Virus record (IMG/VR): IMGVR_UViG_3300046004_001078
Span: 1-44,064 of that record
From: a virus
Strand: one strand, 5' to 3'
DNA: 44,064 bases
In this document: positions 2,325 to 43,528 of the stretch, piece after piece
Layout: every line of letters begins with the position of its first letter
Position numbering within the stretch: the first letter of the stretch is position 1
Position numbers and translations under genes: made by a program
Notes under the pieces: generated by a model
What the model was told of the DNA's origin: nothing
What the model saw: the letters and a program-made list of their open reading frames with translations, nothing else
The model's database searches: none

Positions 2325-2375
2325 TTTAGACTACTCTAAAACTATTGTTTGGTAATACTAAAATAGCTATATTTG
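2325..2375 (+). promoter_or_regulatory. Structural-gene promoter with palindrome (leaderless start)
   Basis: A perfect palindrome TTTAGA-CTAC-TCTAAA (2325-2340) is followed by TTGGTAATACTAAAA and the Bacteroidetes -7 box TATATTTG (2368-2375); TTG at 2345-2347 can serve as -33 element with a 20-base gap. The same three parts in the same order occur at 8063-8112. The ATG of the next gene lies only 4 bases after the box, so the transcript should have almost no leader. The palindrome may bind a phage regulator; that is inference. Confidence 0.78.
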
Positions 2376-5583: not shown

Positions 5584-6234
5584 ATGATTACACTAATACA
5601 CCCCAGCCGTAACCGCCCCGAAATGGCGTATAATCAATTGCAAAATTGGCTAAAGAAATCAAGCGGTAAGATAACAATACAGCACATTCTAAGTATTGAC
5701 CTAGATGAACCGCAAGCGGATAAGTACAAGGAACTGTTTACAGCTAGTCTAATAGTACAAGATAACACAAGTGAGGGTTATGTAGTAGGTGCGACTAACG
5801 TAGCAGCAAAACACGCTAAAGGCAATATTTTAATTTACCTAAGTGACGACTTTGACTGTCCGCAAGATTGGGATATTGAAGTAACCAATAGGTTAGCTGG
5901 CAGAAGGTTAACAGCCTTGCACGTTAACGATGACTATTCTAATTTCCGCAACCTATTTACTATCCCGATAATCACAAGGGACTTATACGATAAGTGGGGG
6001 TTCTTTTGGCATCCCGACTTTAAGTCAATGTTTTGCGATAACTTTATGTGGGAGCAAGTAAAGCGTGAGGGGTTTATTTTAAAAGCCAAAGACTTAGTTT
6101 TTAGGCATGACCACCACGATTTAAAACGTGCGGAAAAAGATGAAACATACATACGAAGCGGAGCGCAATACGCAGATGGTAGGAAGGTATTTAACACGCT
6201 ATGTAAAAGACTGAAATGGAACTGTCAATATTAA
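5584..6234 (+). CDS. Glycosyltransferase-like protein (GT-A fold) 1
   Basis: A 216-residue protein. The start ITLIHPSRNRPEMA and the acidic SDDFD (residues 87-91), after a hydrophobic strand NILIYL, are the nucleotide-sugar and metal-binding pattern of GT-A family 2 enzymes. HDHHD near residue 146 could supply further metal ligands. It starts right after the previous stop and overlaps the next glycosyltransferase by 19 bases. Acceptor and sugar cannot be read from sequence. Because it lies in the virion gene operon, the target may be a virion protein; this is inference. Confidence 0.7.
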   Translation: MITLIHPSRNRPEMAYNQLQNWLKKSSGKITIQHILSIDLDEPQADKYKELFTASLIVQDNTSEGYVVGATNVAAKHAKGNILIYLSDDFDCPQDWDIEVTNRLAGRRLTALHVNDDYSNFRNLFTIPIITRDLYDKWGFFWHPDFKSMFCDNFMWEQVKREGFILKAKDLVFRHDHHDLKRAEKDETYIRSGAQYADGRKVFNTLCKRLKWNCQY

Positions 6235-6797
6235 TAGCCACCGTAGATAGTAGGGTTAACGAGTTTAACGCACTAAAAGCAGAGTTTGAACGCCAAGCGG
6301 AAGGGAAACCAGTTGAAATAATTAGCCTTTGTGATAACAAAGAAATGCCAATAGGCACTAAACGCCAACGGTTATTGGAAATGGCTAAAGGGCGGTTTAT
6401 TGTGTTCTTTGACGATGACGACACCCCCGTAAGTAATTATGTTGACCTTATCTTACACGCTATTAGCTTTGATGTGGATTGCGTAAGCGTTAAAATTCAG
6501 ATGACTACAAATGGGGGTAACCCTCAACTTTGCATACACCGTTTAAGATGTCCAATGGCAGGCGGTAAACTTGCTAAAAGGTATCATTGTGATTGGATAA
6601 GACCGATAACACATTTTAACCCTGTTTTGCGTACCTTAGCTTTAAAGGCTGGATTTGGCAACGAGCGATACGGTGAAGATGTATTATATTGGAATAGGAT
6701 TAACAAGTTAGTAAAAAAAGACTATTGGTTGCCCGATATTCTATTCCACTACAATTACTCTGACAAAATACCCCACAACGAAAAGTACGGAATATGA
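6216..6797 (+). CDS. Glycosyltransferase family 2-like protein 2
   Basis: A 193-residue protein with the GT2 layout: an N-terminal strand LSILIATVDSR, a conserved GTKRQRLLEMAKG helix and the acidic DDDD at residues 66-69 after FIVFF, which is the DxD metal site. ERYGEDVLYWNRI near residue 150 resembles the ED acceptor-site motif of the family. It is a compact domain without membrane segments and overlaps both neighbours, so it is co-translated with the other transferases. Confidence 0.75.
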   Translation: MELSILIATVDSRVNEFNALKAEFERQAEGKPVEIISLCDNKEMPIGTKRQRLLEMAKGRFIVFFDDDDTPVSNYVDLILHAISFDVDCVSVKIQMTTNGGNPQLCIHRLRCPMAGGKLAKRYHCDWIRPITHFNPVLRTLALKAGFGNERYGEDVLYWNRINKLVKKDYWLPDILFHYNYSDKIPHNEKYGI

Positions 6798-7462
6798 CAA
6801 ACCCATTAGTAATTAACGTAGCATTGGGCAAGTGGTATCCACAAGGGCAAGAACGCTTAATAGAGAGCCTTAACGTACATGGCTGGCAATCCGTTAAAGG
6901 CTGGTTAGATAGACCCGTACAAGGCTTTAATACGCATAACCCGTACACTTGTAAAGCTAGTGCCTTTCAATATGCTTTAGACAACCACCACGATGTAGTG
7001 TTGTGGTGCGATGCTTCTATTTACGCTATCAAGCCTATCAACAAGCTAATGGAGTTGATAGATAAACAAGGTTATTTCTTTTGGGGTAGTGGTGAAAATT
7101 GCGCCCAAACGGTTAGCGATGCCTGTTTAAAGTTATTTGGTTTAACCCGTGACCAAGCTGAACTAATACCCGAATGCGCTAGTAGTGTTTTTGGCATTAA
7201 CCTAAATACTTATATTGGTAGAGAGTTTGCTAAACGATTTATTGAGTACACAAAGCAAGGTGCAGCGGACGGCAGTAGGCAACACGACAACCAATCGCAA
7301 GATGCCAGATTTAAGTACCACAGGCAAGACCAGAGCGTAGCAAGCTTAGTAATGAATGAACTAGGTATGAAGCTAGAGCAAATTCGTTACGTTGGCTATA
7401 AAGCCTATTTGAATGATTATGATAATACTGAAAATATTTGTTTACTAAACGAAGGAATGTAA
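6794..7462 (+). CDS. Glycosyltransferase-like protein 3
   Basis: A 222-residue protein. Strand DVVLWCDAS (D73 with S75 in DxD position) after a helix, and a C-terminal DNQSQDARFKYHRQDQSVASLV segment, look like a nucleotide-sugar transferase that lacks the classic second aspartate. The start overlaps the previous gene by ATGA. Less certain than its two upstream neighbours; it could be a transferase-fold protein with another donor. Confidence 0.55.
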   Translation: MTNPLVINVALGKWYPQGQERLIESLNVHGWQSVKGWLDRPVQGFNTHNPYTCKASAFQYALDNHHDVVLWCDASIYAIKPINKLMELIDKQGYFFWGSGENCAQTVSDACLKLFGLTRDQAELIPECASSVFGINLNTYIGREFAKRFIEYTKQGAADGSRQHDNQSQDARFKYHRQDQSVASLVMNELGMKLEQIRYVGYKAYLNDYDNTENICLLNEGM

Positions 7463-8061
7463 TGAGAGAAGACAATTTAAACAAGCTAGGTTTTGAAGGC
7501 GACCCACACGTATTGCCTGTCATTGAAAAACTAGCTAAGAAAAACAAAGTAGGGGTAATTATTGAAACGGGTACTTTCTTTGGAAACACGACTGCTAAGT
7601 TTGCGGAGTTGGGTTTGCCAGTAGTAACTATTGAAAGCCAAAGCAAACAATTTGCCGCAGCCTACAAAAACCTAAAGGCTAAAGGCTACGATGTTGATAA
7701 ATATCAAGACGGTACTATTTGGATGGTTAATGCTCATTCACAAGATGTGTTAGGGCAAGTAATTGACAACACAGGACAGGACAGCATACTATTCTATCTT
7801 GATGCCCATTGGGAAAGTCACTTACCTTTATTAAACGAACTTGACCACATAGCCAAAAGCGGTGTAAAGGCGGTTATCGTTATCCATGACTTCCAAGTAC
7901 CCAACAAAGATTTTGGTTTTGATGTGTACGGTGGTCAACCTTTGAACTACGAATTTATCAAGGACAAGCTTGATGCAATCTACCCTAAAGGCTACAATTA
8001 TTTTTACAACAAAGTAGCGGAAGGGCATAAACGAGGGTTAATATTTATCGAGCCAAAATAA
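7462..8061 (+). CDS. SAM-dependent methyltransferase-like protein
   Basis: A 199-residue protein. VIIETGTFFGNTT (residues 32-44) matches the SAM-binding motif I of class I methyltransferases, VVTIES (55-60) the acidic end of strand 2, and FYLDAHW with VIVIHDF the later motifs of the small sugar-modifying branch. I chose the ATG at 7462 (TAATG overlap with the previous stop) rather than a TTG at 7438. As last gene of the transferase run it may methylate the sugar they add; that is inference. Confidence 0.65.
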   Translation: MREDNLNKLGFEGDPHVLPVIEKLAKKNKVGVIIETGTFFGNTTAKFAELGLPVVTIESQSKQFAAAYKNLKAKGYDVDKYQDGTIWMVNAHSQDVLGQVIDNTGQDSILFYLDAHWESHLPLLNELDHIAKSGVKAVIVIHDFQVPNKDFGFDVYGGQPLNYEFIKDKLDAIYPKGYNYFYNKVAEGHKRGLIFIEPK

Positions 8062-8062
8062 A

Positions 8063-8112
8063 TTTAGATTAGTCTAAAAAATTTGCTTGGTAATATTAAA
8101 ACATTATCTTTG
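8063..8112 (+). promoter_or_regulatory. Structural-gene promoter with palindrome
   Basis: Palindrome TTTAGA-TTAG-TCTAAA (8063-8078), -33 TTTG (8082-8085), the shared TTGGTAATATTAAAA, and -7 TATCTTTG (8105-8112), 19 bases after TTTG. It is the twin of the promoter at 2325-2375. By the spacing in leaderless genes here, transcription should start near 8117, exactly at the first hairpin of the leader RNA. Confidence 0.8.
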
Positions 8113-8115
8113 TAT

Positions 8116-8190
8116 GGTCGAAGGACTTTAATCTACGTGCCAATTTTACCCCACAGGCATAAATAAGTTGGGGTGTTAACTTTTAACACC
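8116..8190 (+). ncRNA. Structured leader RNA, copy 1 (shared with the major capsid gene)
   Basis: Helix P0: GGTC (8116-8119), loop GAAG, GACT (8124-8127). Helix P1: GTGCC (8137-8141) with GGCAT (8156-8160). The P1 loop holds ACCCCA (8148-8153), complementary to TGGGGT (8169-8174), a possible pseudoknot. Helix P3: GGTGTTAA (8172-8179), loop CTT, TTAACACC (8183-8190), ending 5 bases before the ATG. The pseudoknot and P3 share GG, so they may exclude each other. The second copy at 13564-13639 keeps all helices with different bases. No known RNA family is recognised. Confidence 0.75.
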
Positions 8191-8195
8191 TAATT

Positions 8196-8735
8196 ATGGC
8201 TTTTGATTATTGTAATGCCCCCCTTACCGACCACGAACTAATTGCTTGCGGTAACTGGAAAAAAGGCTCAATTAACGCAGTTGCTATCATTGAAGATACA
8301 ACCCTACTTACTGATTACGAAAGTATTTCCGATTGGAACGCTGCTATTGCTGCTGGCGATGTAAAAATTATCAAGCAAGTAAAAGGCGAACTACCAGAAC
8401 CTAGTGTTATTGAAGGTTCTAATCCTGTTGGTGGTGGTCGTGAGAATATCACAGACGGATATAACTACACTCTTGAAATTCAAGACTATAACGTATCAGC
8501 GGATAACGATACCTTTTACGAAAACCTTAACCCACGTATTGCGGCTATTGCCTACTTCATGCCTAAGACTGGCGAAATTGGTGTAGTATTGCAAGAGGTT
8601 ACGTTTAACGCCCGTCCTGTAGTTCCGATGTCAAGCACCGAAAAGCAACACTACTTGCTTACTTCCAATTGGGACGCGCCAGCTAACGAGTTTCCTTTGC
8701 GTTTTACCGCCCCTGCTGGAATCTTTACCGTGTGA
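8196..8735 (+). CDS. Probable major tail tube protein
   Basis: A 179-residue, mostly beta protein without catalytic motifs. It has its own palindrome promoter and the same structured leader as the major capsid gene, so it is probably made in bulk like the capsid. Length and composition suit a siphovirus tail tube subunit. It stands apart from the tape measure and chaperone genes, with glycosyltransferases on both sides. An alternative is a capsid decoration protein. It overlaps the next gene by GTGA. Confidence 0.5.
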   Translation: MAFDYCNAPLTDHELIACGNWKKGSINAVAIIEDTTLLTDYESISDWNAAIAAGDVKIIKQVKGELPEPSVIEGSNPVGGGRENITDGYNYTLEIQDYNVSADNDTFYENLNPRIAAIAYFMPKTGEIGVVLQEVTFNARPVVPMSSTEKQHYLLTSNWDAPANEFPLRFTAPAGIFTV

Positions 8736-9595
8736 GTAAGGGTGTAATATTGTTAGCACTTGGAAAACCTGCCTACGGGCAGTTTGCCTATCACATGGCT
8801 TTATCTATCCGTGCCTACAATACTACAATTCCTATACACTTAGTTTATGAGCCTAGCATTAAGCTAACGCATGAATTAGATGTATTTACCCACAAAACGG
8901 TAATAGACCCCGTACACGTTTATCAAGACGGTAAATTTACCCCTGCATTGGCTAAACTTAATCTCTATAAATACTTGTTATTTGAGGAGAATATTTACGT
9001 AGATGTGGACGGTATTTGCATAGCTGATATTGAGCGTTGTTTTAATCAAACAAAAGACTATGCAGCGGAAAGTTTAGGATATGAACCGTTAAGCAATAAA
9101 GAATACGGCTGGCGTATGCACTGGGCAACTGGCGAAACAATAATGAAGCATTACGGGTTAAGCCCCGACACAATGATACCGTTTATAAACAGTTCTTTTC
9201 AATTTATACGTAAGGGCAAGTTTGCTGAAAAGTTATACGCACAAGCGTTAATGAACTTCAATAACTGCATACCTTTAAAGGAACTAAAAAACGATTGGGG
9301 TAAAAGCCAACCCGATGAACTGTATATGAATATAGCGTGTGGGCAGTTAAATTACGACCCAACTATTGAGCCACAAGTCTACTTTAGAACTCGGTCAATG
9401 GCTGGCGGTAATGAAACCGTAGAAACGCTTGCAAAGAAATATACTTTTGTAGGCTTGTACGGCACTAAGGTAACTAACCACAGAGTTGTTAAAATGCTTT
9501 ATAATAGTGTGGTGGGAAACATTTTTAAGTCAATGGGTCAACCGCACGTACACAAGATTGAACAATTATTGAACTTTAAATTTATGGGAAGATGA
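8732..9595 (+). CDS. Glycosyltransferase family 8-like protein 4
   Basis: A 287-residue protein that starts with GTG inside the previous stop (GTGA). The strand ENIYVDVDG (D91, D93) is a clear DxD site, preceded by LNLYKYLLFE, the usual GT8-type lead-in. FINSSFQFI and DELYMNIA downstream fit the acceptor side of the same fold. It lies between the probable tail tube and portal genes and so belongs to the virion operon; a virion glycoprotein substrate is the simplest guess. Confidence 0.7.
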   Translation: MSKGVILLALGKPAYGQFAYHMALSIRAYNTTIPIHLVYEPSIKLTHELDVFTHKTVIDPVHVYQDGKFTPALAKLNLYKYLLFEENIYVDVDGICIADIERCFNQTKDYAAESLGYEPLSNKEYGWRMHWATGETIMKHYGLSPDTMIPFINSSFQFIRKGKFAEKLYAQALMNFNNCIPLKELKNDWGKSQPDELYMNIACGQLNYDPTIEPQVYFRTRSMAGGNETVETLAKKYTFVGLYGTKVTNHRVVKMLYNSVVGNIFKSMGQPHVHKIEQLLNFKFMGR

Positions 9596-12429: not shown

Positions 12430-12466
12430 TTTGTGCTATCAAAAATAAAGTTTAGATTTGTCTAAA
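12430..12466 (+). promoter_or_regulatory. Promoter with the -7 box inside the palindrome
   Basis: TTTG (12430-12433), 19 bases, then TAGATTTG (12453-12460). The -7 box is part of the palindrome GTTTAGA-TTTG-TCTAAAC (12450-12467), the same palindrome that lies upstream of the -33 region in the promoters at 2325 and 8063. The next ATG is at 12480. A protein bound here would cover the -7 box, so the site could act the opposite way from the other two. Confidence 0.55.
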
Positions 12467-12710: not shown

Positions 12711-13543
12711 TAGACAGCATTGAACTACTAAAAGCAATCGGTTTAGAAAGTGCCGAAACAATAGAGGAAGTAAAAGCCCACATTGAAAAAACTTTTATAC
12801 CTACTAACCTTATTCAAGAAAACGAGTTAATTAAAACACACGTTGGTAAGGTTATTGGTAAACGAATTGGTGAAGCGGAAACCCGTGTAAAGGCAAACGC
12901 CAAAGCATTGGGTATTGAGTTGGAAGATATTGGCGGTAAAAAGTTTGAGGAAATACTTGAAGTATATACCGAAAAGCTAACCGCAAAACAAAAAGAATTA
13001 CAGGATTTGGCTGGCAAAGGTGACGATGCAAAAGTAGCTGAACTGCAAAAGGAAACTGATAAGCTAAAAGCAAAACTGGCTGAAAAGGATAACTTTCTAT
13101 TGGCAGCGGTAGCGGAAAAGGAAAACGTAGTAAAGGAGTTTGCAGGGTATAAAACTAACTTGCAAAAAAGCGAACTAACTACTAAGGCGTGGGGTTCTAT
13201 AGCTTATAGCGATAGTGCTACCGACCTAGTTAAAAAAGGTTTCCAATCATTGGTAAATGATAAATACGAAGTTCGTTTGCCTAATGAGGATGAAACGGCA
13301 ACAAAAGACGGTTTAGTAGTGGTTGACAAGCTAACAGGCGAAAGACCCAAAACGGCAACGGACTTTACTAGCTTTGCGGAAATCTTACAGACGGAAGCAA
13401 AAGCGGCAAACATATTAAAAGTTGGGGGACACAAAGATACACCGCCAGCAACTAAAAAACCTACCTTGATTGATGAAGCACCAAAAGTTAACAAGCCAAT
13501 TAACAGGGCTGAACAACATTTGGAGCGACTTAAACAAGGTTAA
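12707..13543 (+). CDS. Capsid scaffolding protein
   Basis: A 278-residue protein directly before the major capsid gene. Residues about 85-160 form a long, highly charged coiled coil (EKLTAKQKELQDL, ELQKETDKLKAKLAEKDN), and the C-terminus is flexible and basic, the usual build of a scaffold that binds coat protein through its tail. No prohead protease is recognised nearby, so the scaffold may leave the prohead without being cut. Assignment rests on position and coiled-coil content. Confidence 0.72.
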   Translation: MIDSIELLKAIGLESAETIEEVKAHIEKTFIPTNLIQENELIKTHVGKVIGKRIGEAETRVKANAKALGIELEDIGGKKFEEILEVYTEKLTAKQKELQDLAGKGDDAKVAELQKETDKLKAKLAEKDNFLLAAVAEKENVVKEFAGYKTNLQKSELTTKAWGSIAYSDSATDLVKKGFQSLVNDKYEVRLPNEDETATKDGLVVVDKLTGERPKTATDFTSFAEILQTEAKAANILKVGGHKDTPPATKKPTLIDEAPKVNKPINRAEQHLERLKQG

Positions 13544-13563
13544 GCCGAAGGGCTAATACTAAG

Positions 13564-13639
13564 TGCCGAGGGGCAATAAACCTACGTGCCATTTTCTTAC
13601 TAGGGCATTACAATTAAGTAGGGATTAACTTTTAATCTC
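13564..13639 (+). ncRNA. Structured leader RNA, copy 2 (major capsid gene)
   Basis: Helix P0: TGCC (13564-13567), loop GAGG, GGCA (13572-13575). Helix P1: GTGCC (13586-13590) with GGCAT (13604-13608). Loop CTTACT (13596-13601) can pair with AGTAGG (13617-13622), with one G-U. Helix P3: GGGATTAA (13621-13628), loop CTT, TTAATCTC (13632-13639), ending 7 bases before the ATG. Compared with copy 1 (8116-8190), P0, pseudoknot and P3 keep pairing while the bases change; CTACGTGCC and TTAACTTTTAA are identical. No clear promoter is seen just upstream, so it may lie inside a longer transcript. Confidence 0.75.
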
Positions 13640-13646
13640 TATAAAA

Positions 13647-14687
13647 ATGAGTTACGAATCTAGTGCTTATGTAAGCTGTCCAGCGATACAGGCACGTCTA
13701 AATGAAATCTTTAACAATGCGGATTTGACGCAAAGGCGTTACATTCCCCCATTCCTAAGTGCGATAATCTCGCCACTTAACACGCAAGGCGTAACACTTC
13801 AACAACGTATTGGCGGCAATGGTCGCAAGCGTGAAGTTCAAGCGGTGTACAGCCCACGACTATGTACTAACAGCGTAAGTTCAAGCCGTTTGGATGCTTG
13901 TACTGGTGGCGACAAAGTTGGCGAACTATCGCAGACTTACGAAGTTGACCCCGATGCAGGTTCATTTATTACCAAGAACTTGGAACTACGTGACCTTATT
14001 GACGTTTGCGAAACTGATAGCTTTTATGTGGCTAACACAATTAACAAAATGATTGATGCGGTTGTACGTGTGATGGGTACTACCACACTAGCTGAAGCTG
14101 CTGTGTTGTTTGGTGTTCATGCTGATACTGGCAGCGATGCAGCGGTAACGGTAAGCACACAAATTGGCAACAATGTAAGCGATGACATCATTACTAAGTT
14201 GTCTTACCTTTTGAAAATTAGCGAGTACTCAAACAACGAGGCTTGGGTAGTTGGTGGTTCATTTGACTTTAACCGCTACTATTCAGCAGTTGGCTTGTCT
14301 TGTTGCACCGATGCTCTAAACTTTGACTTGGCAGCTTACAATGGTCAATATGGCCCTATGCCATTGTTTGACAAAGGCGTTGATACTGCTTGGGGTGACA
14401 ACCACGTTGGTTTGTTGTTGCCTAATGCTTTGCAGTTGATTACTTACAACGAGTACGTAGGTGAGCGTGGTGTACGTGTTATCGACACCGAAACGTACAA
14501 ACAAGGCACAATAGTTGACCCTGCTACTGGCATTATGTTCGACTATTCGGCTAAGTTTGATTGCGGCACTTGGACATTTTCTTTGGGTCTTGCTCACCAA
14601 TTGGTTGCAGCACCTTCTGATATGTTCTATGCTTGTGATGAACTACGTGGAACGAATGGCTTTTGGGATTTTGTTATTGCTAACTAA
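13647..14687 (+). CDS. Major capsid protein
   Basis: A 346-residue protein following the scaffold gene and preceded by the structured leader. Size and order suit an HK97-fold coat protein, though the fold cannot be proven by eye. It has an N-terminal helix-rich arm (AIQARLNEIFNNADLT) and a long mixed alpha/beta body. Several cysteines (C9, and CCTD near residue 216) could form cross-links. No delta-domain or protease site is evident, in line with a separate scaffold. Confidence 0.8.
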   Translation: MSYESSAYVSCPAIQARLNEIFNNADLTQRRYIPPFLSAIISPLNTQGVTLQQRIGGNGRKREVQAVYSPRLCTNSVSSSRLDACTGGDKVGELSQTYEVDPDAGSFITKNLELRDLIDVCETDSFYVANTINKMIDAVVRVMGTTTLAEAAVLFGVHADTGSDAAVTVSTQIGNNVSDDIITKLSYLLKISEYSNNEAWVVGGSFDFNRYYSAVGLSCCTDALNFDLAAYNGQYGPMPLFDKGVDTAWGDNHVGLLLPNALQLITYNEYVGERGVRVIDTETYKQGTIVDPATGIMFDYSAKFDCGTWTFSLGLAHQLVAAPSDMFYACDELRGTNGFWDFVIAN

Positions 14688-37841: not shown

Positions 37842-37985
37842 ATGACCGACAAGATAGAATATGCCACAGAAGATGAAATAGATGCAGCTATTGACAATTG
37901 CTACCCAACACCACTAGCAAAAATAAGCGCAAGCCTACACTACGACCTTTATGGGTATTTCCCGTTTAATGCCCAACAGAATTGA
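37842..37985 (+). CDS. Small protein coupled to the large terminase
   Basis: A 47-residue ORF (starting MTDKIEYATEDEIDAAIDN) whose TGA overlaps the TTG start of the large terminase. TATCTTAG at 37824-37831 is a possible -7 box. The ORF may be an N-terminal portion split from the terminase or a translational coupler. Confidence 0.5.
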   Translation: MTDKIEYATEDEIDAAIDNCYPTPLAKISASLHYDLYGYFPFNAQQN

Positions 37986-39262
37986 AGATAAACGAAACAT
38001 ACCTACCCTACCTATACGACACCACTCCTTACTTGGTATTTAAGGGAACGGCTGGCAGCGGCAAAAGCGTGTTTTGTGCTCAAAAGATAGTGATTAGAAC
38101 CATATCCGAGCAAGGGCATAGGTTTTTGTGTTTGCGTAAAGTAGGTAGAACCGTACAAGATAGTATTTGGAAGGAAATACTAAGCGCAATAAATGAAAGC
38201 GGTTTCAGTAGTGAGTTTAACCTAAACAAAACTACCCACACCATACTACACATACCCACAGGCAATGAAATAATTTGCATGGGTTTGGATGACAGCGAAA
38301 AGATTAAGTCTATCCACAAACCAACAGGGGTATGGTTAGAGGAAGCCACCGAGTTTACAGTTGACGACTTCAACCAAATAGATACCCGTGTACGGGGTGG
38401 GTTAAACCACTACAAACAAATGCTATTGAGTTTTAACCCTACTGACCACCGTAGTTGGATAAAGTCTTATTTCTTTGATGGAGAGTGGGCAAAAACAACC
38501 GAAATAGATGGAGAGTTAATAACCATTGACCGTAAGATAATTGAAACAAGCTGGCGCAATAACCCATTTTTAAGCATTGAGGATATTGCTAAAATTAAGA
38601 TTAAGGGCGCATCTTCACCAAACTTTCATAGGGTATATTTTTTGGGTGAGTGGGGTACACCAGAAGTATCTAATCCATTTCTTTATATGTGGAAAGATAG
38701 CTTTATAGACGACACAATAGAAGTCAACCCCAAACTAACATTATACGTTAGCTTTGACTTTAACGTAAGCCCTGCAACCGCAACCGTCCATCAGTTTGGG
38801 CATGATTTTTACTACACACTAGATGAATTTAGACTAATAAGCGCAAAGGACAGGCAAGTAGAAGAAAGCTATACAGAGGAGTTATGTAAATACATCAAGA
38901 CAAAGTACGGGGGTATGCACATAAGAGTAACAGGCGATGCAACCGCCATGAGCCGTAAAGCCAATAGTAGGTTAACGGACTTCCAAATAATCCAAAACGT
39001 ATTGAACCCTGCAAAGATGGATTTCCTACGTAAGAACCCAAGCCATGCAGAAAGCAGCGCACTAAGCAACGCCATATTTTCAAGACACCCGAATAGGAAG
39101 GTACACCCCCGTTGTGAATACTTGATAGAGGACTTTAGAACGATAGAATATGCGGACAGTTCAATAGTCAAGCCAAAGGATAGAATGGTGGGTCACTTGC
39201 TTGATACACAACGCTACATGGATAACACCTACTTTGGTAACTACTTGCAAAGTTTACGTTAA
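37982..39262 (+). CDS. terL: Terminase large subunit
   Basis: A 426-residue packaging motor of the PBSX/terminase_3 type. ATPase: Walker A GTAGSGKS (residues 22-29), Walker B VWLEEATE (117-124), coupling motif SFNPT (150-154). Nuclease: D259 (SFDFN), D319 (TGDATA) and D408 (HLLDTQRYMD) as metal ligands. It starts with TTG overlapping the previous stop. It pumps DNA through the portal and cuts the concatemer. Confidence 0.94.
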   Translation: MKINETYLPYLYDTTPYLVFKGTAGSGKSVFCAQKIVIRTISEQGHRFLCLRKVGRTVQDSIWKEILSAINESGFSSEFNLNKTTHTILHIPTGNEIICMGLDDSEKIKSIHKPTGVWLEEATEFTVDDFNQIDTRVRGGLNHYKQMLLSFNPTDHRSWIKSYFFDGEWAKTTEIDGELITIDRKIIETSWRNNPFLSIEDIAKIKIKGASSPNFHRVYFLGEWGTPEVSNPFLYMWKDSFIDDTIEVNPKLTLYVSFDFNVSPATATVHQFGHDFYYTLDEFRLISAKDRQVEESYTEELCKYIKTKYGGMHIRVTGDATAMSRKANSRLTDFQIIQNVLNPAKMDFLRKNPSHAESSALSNAIFSRHPNRKVHPRCEYLIEDFRTIEYADSSIVKPKDRMVGHLLDTQRYMDNTYFGNYLQSLR

Positions 39263-40807: not shown

Positions 40808-40959
40808 AATTACTATCACTAGCCAATGGCGACCCGTTGGTATTTGATAGGATTAAACGAATGACAGTAAACGAGTGGCTAAACTTAGTGATATATGGCT
40901 TTAGAACAAGTAACAGTAGAGTACAACCTAGCGTTGGAGAAAGCAAAAGCCCAGTTTGA
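40639..40959 (+). CDS. Tail assembly chaperone, -1 frameshift extension
   Basis: In the -1 frame relative to the gene at 40130 the sequence is open from 40564 to a TGA at 40957-40959, past the zero-frame stop. It encodes WYRAELYTQGNNQEIELLSL, then FDRIKRMTVNEWLNLVIYGF, a protein-like segment that lacks its own early start codon. A slip at T TTT TTC (40633-40639) would give a fusion of about 276 residues (lambda gpGT type). The slip could occur later at a non-canonical site, since the zero frame also looks coding up to its end. It overlaps the tape measure start by 65 bases. Confidence 0.62.
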   Translation, partial: RASQVERIHTVFRTVDARLQGLVSVSENEDRSGELGNRDILWYRAELYTQGNNQEIELLSLANGDPLVFDRIKRMTVNEWLNLVIYGFRTSNSRVQPSVGESKSPV

Positions 40960-43528
40960 GGCGTTTGTTAAAACCGTACAGCAGGGTGAAAAGAAAGTAG
41001 TGGAAGGTGCAGTTACCACAAGCAAAACCATTACGGCAGAGGAAGAAAAAGCACATAGTAAGCGCAAAGCCATTAGAGCGCAAGAAGAACAACAATTAAC
41101 CGAAATCCAAAAGAAACGAAAGAAAGCATATTCACCCGATGAAATAGTACAATACAACAAAACAATAGAAGAAACTAGCAAGCGTGTAAAAGCGGTAACA
41201 TCTGAAACGCAAAATCTTGAAAAGGGCAACGGCAACCTAATTACAAGTTTTAGAAGTATTGCAGGTGCGGTGGGTATTGCTTTTGGTATTCAAGAATTAT
41301 TAGCGTTTGGTAAAGAACTTGTGCAATTAGGATATAAATCACAAGGCGTAACAAAAGCCTTTAATGCTATTGCAAGTTCGCAGGATTTGGGGGCATTAAG
41401 AGCATCAACAGGATTTGCGGTAAGTGACCTGCAACTAAAGCAGTTAGCGGTTAAGGCAAACACTTTTAAAATATCACTTGAAACATTACCTACCTTATTA
41501 AAGTTTGCTACAATTAGGGCATCGGAAACAGGACAAGAAGTTGATTATTTGGTTGACTCAATTATTACTGGCATTGGTAGACAATCACCATTGATATTGG
41601 ATAACTTAGGTATTTCGGCTATTGAGTTACAACAAGAATTTAGGGCAACAGGAGATTTTGCATTAGCAGCGGCAAATATTATTGACCGTGAATTGGCTAA
41701 CTCAGTCACAAGTATAGACGATGCAACTAACGCAATGCAAAGGTTAAACGCAAAGTTTGAAAACTTTAAGGAAACCGCTGGCAATGCACTTGTTAAGCAG
41801 CTAGATGAAATAAGCACTATATTTGGCAGTAACATTTCATTGATTGATAAATACGGGGCTTCGCTTAATTATTTGGGGCAAGCAGTACCTTCATTGGCGT
41901 TCCTGCAATTTATAGGGGACAATGAAAAGCTATATAAGTCAATATTAGAAACAGAAGCGGCACTAGCAAAGTACAATCAAGAAATACAAAACACTTTAAC
42001 CGTAACGGGCGACACCGAAACAAAAATACAGCAGTTAGTTCAGATATTGACTATGCTGGATAAGTTGGTAGCGTCTAATGCGGAAGCTTTTGGATTTGCA
42101 GCGTTAGCCGTTCAACACTACGAAAAGCAATTAAATGAGTTGCAAAACCAAGCCCCCGTAGAAGTTACCGAAACGCTAAAATCTTTAAATGAAGAATTAT
42201 CTTTGTTAAAAGACCAATTTGAAAACACCGATATTAATAGCCCGTTATTTAGAACTTTACAAGCGGAAATTAAAGACCTTGAAGCAAGGATAGAAAGCAT
42301 TACCAACCCAACCAATAAAGGCAGTATTGCGTACTTTGAAGCGCAACTAGCCAAACTAGAGGAACGCTTAAAGAACGCCACAGGCATTGAAAAGATAAAA
42401 GACCTAGAGCATGAAATTTACTTACTAGGTGTTAGGATTGCATCAATGAAAAACCTTGACACGGTATTAGGTTCGGAAATAATAGACAACAGCGTACCAA
42501 CTGACATTGATGCAGCCAACGCAGCAGCCATAAGGTTAATTGAAAGTTTGCAGCTACTTAACGATGTTCAGTTAAACGAACTTAACAAAGAACTTGACAA
42601 GACTAGCAAAGAGTTAACTGACTTAGCTACCCAAGTTACAGATGACTTATGGGATGAGTTTAAAGCTGGCATAGACAGCGCACGGCAAAAGCAAGAAGAG
42701 TTTAACTCTATACTAACGAGTAGCGTAACTACCTTAGTAGGGGACTTAACAGGCTTATTTAGTGCTATTGGAGCGCAACAAGATGAAGCAATTAACCGCC
42801 AACTAGAAGGTGAAAAAACAAGAGCACAAGAGCACTACGATATTATGCGTGGCATTTGGCAAGCGCAACTCGAAAACGGGCAAATAACAAAAGAGGAATT
42901 ATTTAATCAAGAAACTGCATACAACGAAAAGATTAACGCACTTGAAGCAAGGCAAGCGGAAGTAAGACGCCAGCAGTTAAGGAAACAAGCCATTGCGGAA
43001 AAAGCAAACGCTTCGTTTCAGTTGATTATTGGTACTACAACAGCCGTAGCAAAGAACTTAGCGAACCCCCCTGCTATTATTGCTATCTTAGCATTGGCAG
43101 CGGCACAACTAGCGGTAATTGCAGCTACACCGATACCAGAATTTGCAAAGGGTGTGGTAGGTTTGCAAGGTGCTGGAACGGAAACAAGCGATAGCATACA
43201 CGCCAAACTATCCAAAGGTGAAAGCGTAATAACCGCCAAAGCAACACGGGCTAACAAAGATGCGTTAACCGCAATGAACAATGGAGAGTACGAGAAGTTC
43301 GTAACGCAAAAATACATTATGCCAGCGTTGGAAGTAAGACGGGAAAAGCAACGTAATAGCTTTGCCGAAAACATATCAAGGTCAATGCAATCCAGTACTT
43401 ATGACGACAGCCTGTTAATACACGAAACACGTAAAAACAAAGCTGTTAGCATTAGGAATGCAGACCAAATAGGCAAAGCCACCGCACGGGAAATGAATAA
43501 ACAAAGCTACTTTAAAAACAGGGTATGA
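40895..43528 (+). CDS. Tail tape measure protein
   Basis: An 877-residue, helix-rich protein with coiled coils (residues 35-110, 410-510, 660-700), a hydrophobic region near 118-138 (SFRSIAGAVGIAFGIQELLAF) and a second near 705-745 (AIIAILALAAAQLAVIAATPIPEFAKG). AKLSKGESVITAKATRANKDAL at the end is typical of tape measures. It sets tail length and may form the channel in the host membrane. By the usual 1.5 angstrom per residue rule the tail would be near 130 nm; this is only an estimate. Confidence 0.9.
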   Translation: MALEQVTVEYNLALEKAKAQFEAFVKTVQQGEKKVVEGAVTTSKTITAEEEKAHSKRKAIRAQEEQQLTEIQKKRKKAYSPDEIVQYNKTIEETSKRVKAVTSETQNLEKGNGNLITSFRSIAGAVGIAFGIQELLAFGKELVQLGYKSQGVTKAFNAIASSQDLGALRASTGFAVSDLQLKQLAVKANTFKISLETLPTLLKFATIRASETGQEVDYLVDSIITGIGRQSPLILDNLGISAIELQQEFRATGDFALAAANIIDRELANSVTSIDDATNAMQRLNAKFENFKETAGNALVKQLDEISTIFGSNISLIDKYGASLNYLGQAVPSLAFLQFIGDNEKLYKSILETEAALAKYNQEIQNTLTVTGDTETKIQQLVQILTMLDKLVASNAEAFGFAALAVQHYEKQLNELQNQAPVEVTETLKSLNEELSLLKDQFENTDINSPLFRTLQAEIKDLEARIESITNPTNKGSIAYFEAQLAKLEERLKNATGIEKIKDLEHEIYLLGVRIASMKNLDTVLGSEIIDNSVPTDIDAANAAAIRLIESLQLLNDVQLNELNKELDKTSKELTDLATQVTDDLWDEFKAGIDSARQKQEEFNSILTSSVTTLVGDLTGLFSAIGAQQDEAINRQLEGEKTRAQEHYDIMRGIWQAQLENGQITKEELFNQETAYNEKINALEARQAEVRRQQLRKQAIAEKANASFQLIIGTTTAVAKNLANPPAIIAILALAAAQLAVIAATPIPEFAKGVVGLQGAGTETSDSIHAKLSKGESVITAKATRANKDALTAMNNGEYEKFVTQKYIMPALEVRREKQRNSFAENISRSMQSSTYDDSLLIHETRKNKAVSIRNADQIGKATAREMNKQSYFKNRV

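Follow-up and report, generated by a model that had tools for sequence, protein, structure and literature searches.

How tailed phages make virion proteins in large and well-balanced amounts is poorly known where the ribosomes of their hosts ignore Shine-Dalgarno signals. A directly testable handle on this problem is offered by a stretch of DNA from a marine virus, of 44,064 nucleotides (IMG/VR record IMGVR_UViG_3300046004_001078, positions 1 to 44,064; here called the window), in which a compact RNA element with compensatory evolution stands before two genes, one of them a probable capsid gene. The promoter boxes of the window, a tape-measure protein resembling those of Porphyromonas phages and a tail protein distantly related to those of marine flavobacteria phages all point to the genome of a Bacteroidota siphophage. 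What a structured leader, present twice in such a genome, does for the genes that follow it is the question addressed here. The leader probably controls the amount of virion protein; the means by which it would do so are weighed below.

Two Copies of One Leader Element

One RNA element, in two diverged copies, makes up the 75-76 nt directly 5' of the ATG codons at 8196 and 13647. Copy 1 (8116-8190) precedes a 179-aa ORF (8196-8735) and copy 2 (13564-13639) precedes the probable capsid ORF of 346 aa (13647-14687), all on the plus strand. A first-pass annotation, made from the letters of the window, had aligned the two stretches end to end, and the strands of P0, the pseudoknot and P3 that it named are all present. 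The order in both leaders is hairpin P0, hairpin P1, an H-type pseudoknot helix P2 that starts from the P1 loop, and hairpin P3.

P0 is a 4-bp hairpin with a C(GARG)G loop, namely GGTC(GAAG)GACT at 8116-8127 in copy 1 and TGCC(GAGG)GGCA at 13564-13575 in copy 2. A spacer of 9-10 nt, ending in CTAC (CCAC in one copy), leads to P1, whose strands GTGCC and GGCAT do not differ between the two window copies (8137-8141 with 8156-8160, spanning 8137-8160, and 13586-13590 with 13604-13608, spanning 13586-13608). The six pairs of P2 join the P1 loop to a stretch 8 nt past P1: ACCCCA (8148-8153) with TGGGGT (8169-8174) in copy 1, spanning 8148-8174, and CTTACT (13596-13601) with AGTAGG (13617-13622) in copy 2, spanning 13596-13622. 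Together P1 and P2 make an H-type pseudoknot; its three loops measure 5-6, 2 and 8 nt, and the first of them is U-rich. P3 consists of eight pairs and a CTT loop, GGTGTTAA(CTT)TTAACACC at 8172-8190 and GGGATTAA(CTT)TTAATCTC at 13621-13639, with double changes between the copies; its 3' end lies 5 or 7 nt from the ATG, in agreement with the distance reported earlier for both leaders.

A further P0-like hairpin, AGCC(GAAG)GGCT, is located at 13543-13554 on the plus strand, where it overlaps the stop codon of the upstream gene; with the P0 hairpin of copy 2 it makes a tandem pair. The pattern SNCGARGGNS has three matches in the window, and these are the two P0 hairpins and this extra one.

Compensatory Change and Selection on RNA Structure

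In the first-pass annotation, selected RNA structure was argued from changes on both sides of helices between the two window copies. This argument was right but thin, and it was made firm by a relative, L120, which was found by scanning IMG/VR with the capsid protein; its capsid protein is 97% identical and its DNA about 86.5% identical to that of the window. The capsid leaders of the two genomes differ by nine substitutions, six of which make up three clean double changes (C-G to U-A in P0, C-G to U-A in P1, and U-A to C-G in P2), and not one pair is broken. If the nine substitutions were placed randomly, at least three double-changed pairs would arise with P = 2.6e-4, and at least three double changes with every pair intact occurred in 0 of 200,000 random trials. 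The L120 capsid leader is thus a further compensatory example before a homologous gene. The extra hairpin at 13543-13554 is unchanged in L120. Leader 1 differs between the genomes at 2 of 75 nt, where about 10 differences would be expected at the genome-wide level of about 13.5% (binomial P 0.0015).

A four-row alignment of the two leader copies in the two genomes was made by hand. Standard pairs occupy 79 of its 80 helix cells and 8 of the 20 pairs covary; pairs of P0 in copy 1 differ from those of copy 2 and of L120. Four of the six P2 pairs covary, a number within one helix that none of 500 column shuffles reached (all gave 3 or fewer). The base for these figures is one phage lineage with two genomes and four copies, and the covariation statistics are thin because there are two genomes only. 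When only the capsid leaders of the two genomes went into a covariance model, it recovered the other leader in both genomes with E of about 1e-5 (2-3e-5, a rough value from a shortened calibration), and it detected no third copy in either genome.

The strand that carries the function can also be read from the pairs. The closing pair of P1 is G-U in all four copies and P2 contains a U-G pair in both capsid copies; these would be C-A on the opposite strand, which argues that plus-strand RNA, in the sense of the mRNA, is the functional form. All four copies lie on the same strand and just 5' of an AUG. The energy of single-sequence folding is only mildly unusual (z from -0.9 to -2.1), and 4% of the 86-nt stretches drawn at random from the window hold a pseudoknot of such geometry, so the case stands on compensatory change and not on stability. 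A chance match of the capsid P2 strand to some 6-mer is expected in 53% of cases in any register and in 0.9% in the correct register. The competing fold CCUAC/GUAGG, which RNAfold chooses for the capsid leader of the window, was rejected: it is broken in L120, where P2 is repaired.

Compensatory change between these aligned copies shows that selection acts on the sense RNA to keep the fold P0-P1-P2(pseudoknot)-P3, with the weakest case for P3. This helix is the most doubtful of the four: it is identical in the window and L120 capsid leaders, and its innermost pair is absent from the other leader of L120; the remaining P3 and P2 pairing is kept across the four copies.

Distribution of the Element

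It had been proposed that the leader belongs to no named RNA family, and this was borne out at both thresholds used: the whole window gave 0 matches at gathering score against the 4227 models of Rfam 15, and the two leaders, searched at E up to 10, gave only unrelated matches far below the cut-off. No published description of the element was found in the literature searched, a body in which subscription papers are mostly outside coverage.

The wider family that was anticipated before capsid and tail genes of related phages did not appear, as L120 is the single carrier in IMG/VR and there is none among isolate phages or in the scans of GTDB genomes. The IMG/VR scans used RNA patterns and the capsid protein, the 179-aa product, the terminase and the portal-like protein. 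Other matches to the RNA patterns were discarded, being, as judged by eye, either without the downstream pairing or in coding-like sequence. Another contig, L148, has the terminase and tail region in common with the window and stops before the leaders. In isolate phages, tblastn gave no match for the capsid, 179-aa, portal-like or minor-head-like protein, and the blastn matches to the leaders were attributed to chance. Covariance model R1 detected nothing significant in L148, Tenacibaculum phage JQ, Leeuwenhoekiella phage Arctus_1 or Rhodobacteraceae phage MD05. The leader stretch CTACGTGCCA resembles the 530-loop stretch of 16S rRNA in some bacteria; this likeness is lost in the capsid copy of L120 and was treated as a coincidence.

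Genes Downstream of the Leaders

The first-pass annotation had assigned the ORF at 13647 to the major capsid protein and that at 8196 to a probable major tail protein. The former assignment holds as probable by gene context, since a 611-aa portal-like, a minor-head-like and a coiled-coil scaffold-like protein are encoded upstream (their likenesses are read from sequence and are confirmed by no family search); the product of 13647 itself has no family or structure match. The latter found no support: the 179-aa product, which is possibly a tail tube protein, has no match in Pfam, PHROGs or PDB. The AlphaFold models of both products (pLDDT 36 for 8196 and 34 for 13647) are too poor for structure searching. 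A phage-encoded bS21 was looked for and is absent.

Competition Between P2 and P3 and the Proposed Mechanism

GGT (8172-8174) in copy 1 and GG (13621-13622) in copy 2 are common to P2 and P3. When P2 is fully formed, the residual P3 amounts to +0.6 (copy 1) or -0.7 (capsid) kcal/mol; when P3 is fully formed, the residual P2 amounts to -0.8 (copy 1) or -0.5 (capsid) kcal/mol, and to -2.2 in the capsid leader of L120. The full helices P2 and P3 are comparable in strength, with -9.1 versus -7.0 kcal/mol in copy 1, -3.7 versus -4.3 in the capsid leader and -5.4 versus -4.3 in the L120 capsid leader, all being nearest-neighbour energies with the loop cost of the pseudoknot outside the calculation. 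The 2-3 shared nucleotides and these exclusive energies mean that P2 and P3 cannot both form fully and that there are two exclusive states, which supports the competition for a common GG noted in the first pass.

A selected structure, on the same strand in several copies and at a fixed place before start codons, has the general features of a cis-acting structured leader. Our preferred reading, held tentatively with a probability of about 0.42, is a leader RNA that acts in cis and after transcription, was duplicated inside a single phage lineage and sets how strongly two late virion genes are translated, the pseudoknot opening and P3 closing the ribosome site. The P1/P2 pseudoknot could form first during transcription, as the 3' strand of P2 emerges ahead of the 3' arm of P3. 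Once it had formed, P3 would lose its base and melt, and the 21-24 nt ahead of the AUG, A/U-rich and now single-stranded, would become an open landing site for the ribosome. If P3 formed instead, the region from about -6 to -26 would be closed and initiation would be expected to drop. P0 stands at or near the 5' end of the mRNA in copy 1 and occurs twice at the intercistronic copy 2; its role is probably to protect the message end or to define it.

The assignment of the two states draws on the host. Bacteroidota ribosomes do without Shine-Dalgarno pairing and favour an unpaired start region. In Flavobacterium johnsoniae, start regions tend to be free of pairing between -20 and +20, a trend that is stronger in highly translated genes (PMC6847099). 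A hairpin that spans -6 to -26 is therefore out of the ordinary for a late gene, and the pseudoknot is proposed as the open state and P3 as the closed one. A more specific version, in which the two copies act as a two-state switch that coordinates the translation of the capsid gene and the second virion gene through one shared signal, such as free virion protein, is considered doubtful. If it were true, the element would be a device for late-gene translation control in a tailed phage with non-Shine-Dalgarno host ribosomes; should the element raise output, it would also be of use as a part for gene expression in Bacteroidota. Protection of the mRNA end and binding of a protein operator are serious rivals, and the present evidence appears to separate them poorly from the open/closed reading, against which it counts that a pure stabiliser or a protein operator would give much the same sequence signature.

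Predicted Promoter, Message Ends and Possible Protection of the Transcript

Upstream of copy 1, a Bacteroidota-type -7 box, TATCTTTG, occurs at 8105-8112 on the plus strand, with a TTTG element at 8081-8084. In F. johnsoniae promoters the G of the -7 box maps to -5, and with this spacing the transcription start of leader 1 is predicted at 8117 (PMC6847099). That position is the base of P0, so the message would open with a hairpin and without a 5' single strand. The palindrome TTTAGATTAGTCTAAA (8063-8078), located 26 nt before the -7 box and kept in L120, is likely a site for a phage late-gene regulator, a putative role.

The palindrome TTTAGANNNNTCTAAA has three copies in the window (2325-2340, 8063-8078 and 12451-12466), the first two of which lie 27 and 26 nt before TAHHTTTG boxes (2368 and 8105). 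The arrangement of palindrome and box seen at leader 1 is thus also present 5' of the gene at 2380. There, the box TATATTTG at 2368 ends 4 nt from the ATG at 2380, and the F. johnsoniae spacing would put the start at the A of this ATG; the transcript so predicted would be leaderless, unlike the one from the similar promoter at 8105 with its long structured leader.

No promoter box was found near copy 2, which is intercistronic, between the scaffold-like gene (end 13543) and the probable capsid gene. From these two facts, copy 2 would act inside a longer message or at a processed end. Neither leader contains a terminator-like site: P3 is A/U-rich and is followed by TAATTATG or TATAAAAATG, instead of the G+C-rich stem and U run of an intrinsic terminator or attenuator. 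A leader-peptide attenuator was also rejected, as its sole candidate ATG, at 8114, is absent from L120 (TAAGG) and lies before the predicted start.

These ends are what would be expected if the leader were a protector of mRNA ends and a processing element, with P0 and the compact pseudoknot shielding the message from 5'-dependent decay. At copy 1 the predicted start falls on the base of P0, and at copy 2, between two genes, two tandem P0 hairpins occur, the first at a stop codon; there the upstream scaffold part would be cleaved and decay while the capsid part persists, giving more capsid than scaffold. A parallel is provided by T4 gene 32 mRNA, which is cut at -71 beside its pseudoknot and is unusually stable (PMC3014915). 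The 5'-terminal stabilising hairpins of bacterial and phage mRNAs resemble P0 in their place at the (here predicted) 5' end, but the leader adds a conserved pseudoknot and an AUG-proximal hairpin. A simple hairpin would be enough for protection, and the pseudoknot, the mutual exclusion of P2 and P3 and the fixed 5-7 nt to the AUG are left unexplained, so that we regard this reading as unlikely.

Comparison With Translational Operators and Other Pseudoknots

By analogy, the nearest system in function appears to be the gene 32 leader of T4-type phages. In T4, T2 and RB69, this leader likewise has an H-type pseudoknot in a phage mRNA tens of nucleotides 5' of the AUG, with an A/U-rich start region after it, on polycistronic and processed messages (PMC3014915). 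The H-type pseudoknot upstream of the AUG is found here with P1 and P2 covariation in four copies, but the downstream single-strand-binding protein is not, as the ORFs behind the leaders have no family matches and lie in or beside head genes. Unlike the gene 32 leader, the present one precedes virion genes, occurs twice per genome, carries a tetraloop hairpin in front and has P3 as a competitor; the start region of T4 gene 32 is unstructured. Between pseudoknot and start, the gene 32 type has an A/U-rich stretch with UUAA repeats; the present leader has UUAAC..UUUUAA there, and this can form P3. The rpsO (S15) operator of E. coli is similar in having a pseudoknot in a translational operator (PMC3014915), but it serves a bacterial gene with a ribosomal protein as binder, and the start region here is of the non-Shine-Dalgarno kind.

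These comparisons lead to an autogenous or cross-regulatory operator, in which a virion protein or another phage protein would bind the pseudoknot and stop translation when in excess. Its topology and place are those of the T4 gene 32 operator (PMC3014915), and a protein could make contact with the unpaired letters that no copy has changed (AC ahead of P1, UUU in loop 1 and the GARG loop of the hairpin). A single element at two genes would also suit one shared binder. Against it, a review of 2010 held T4-type gene 32 to be perhaps the only case of a viral leader pseudoknot in translational autocontrol and knew no other viral pseudoknot so used (PMC3014915). In the literature searched, no case came up of a tailed-phage capsid gene under translational autocontrol through an operator of this kind, and no candidate binder was identified here. 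On balance an operator seems quite unlikely.

Some riboswitches and the pistol ribozymes also have, in outline, an H-type pseudoknot with a hairpin after it, and the leaders resemble them in this. A ligand-sensing riboswitch or a self-cleaving ribozyme with a pseudoknot is nevertheless very improbable, as the Rfam 15 models of pseudoknotted riboswitches and the pistol ribozyme do not match the leaders even at permissive thresholds, virion genes are not a metabolic target and the core has only a short unpaired stretch. Although the predicted promoter lies directly 5' of copy 1, the idea that the repeat works as DNA, as a promoter or an operator, or that the copies are alike by chance, is almost certainly wrong given the double changes that keep pairing, the G-U pairs, the plus-strand placement before an ATG and the lack of a promoter box at copy 2.

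Genome Context

The 179-aa ORF and leader 1 sit inside a block of glycosyltransferase-like genes (5584-8061 and 8732-9595; one PHROG match, at 5584-6234), which is located between the tail region and the head genes. The tape-measure protein (40895-43528) shows 31-35% identity, over part of its length, to proteins of Porphyromonas gingivalis phages. The terminase large subunit (Pfam Terminase_3; 37982-39262) is nearly identical to that of L148 in its C-terminal part and clearly more diverged in its N-terminal part, and this uneven divergence suggests mosaic exchange.
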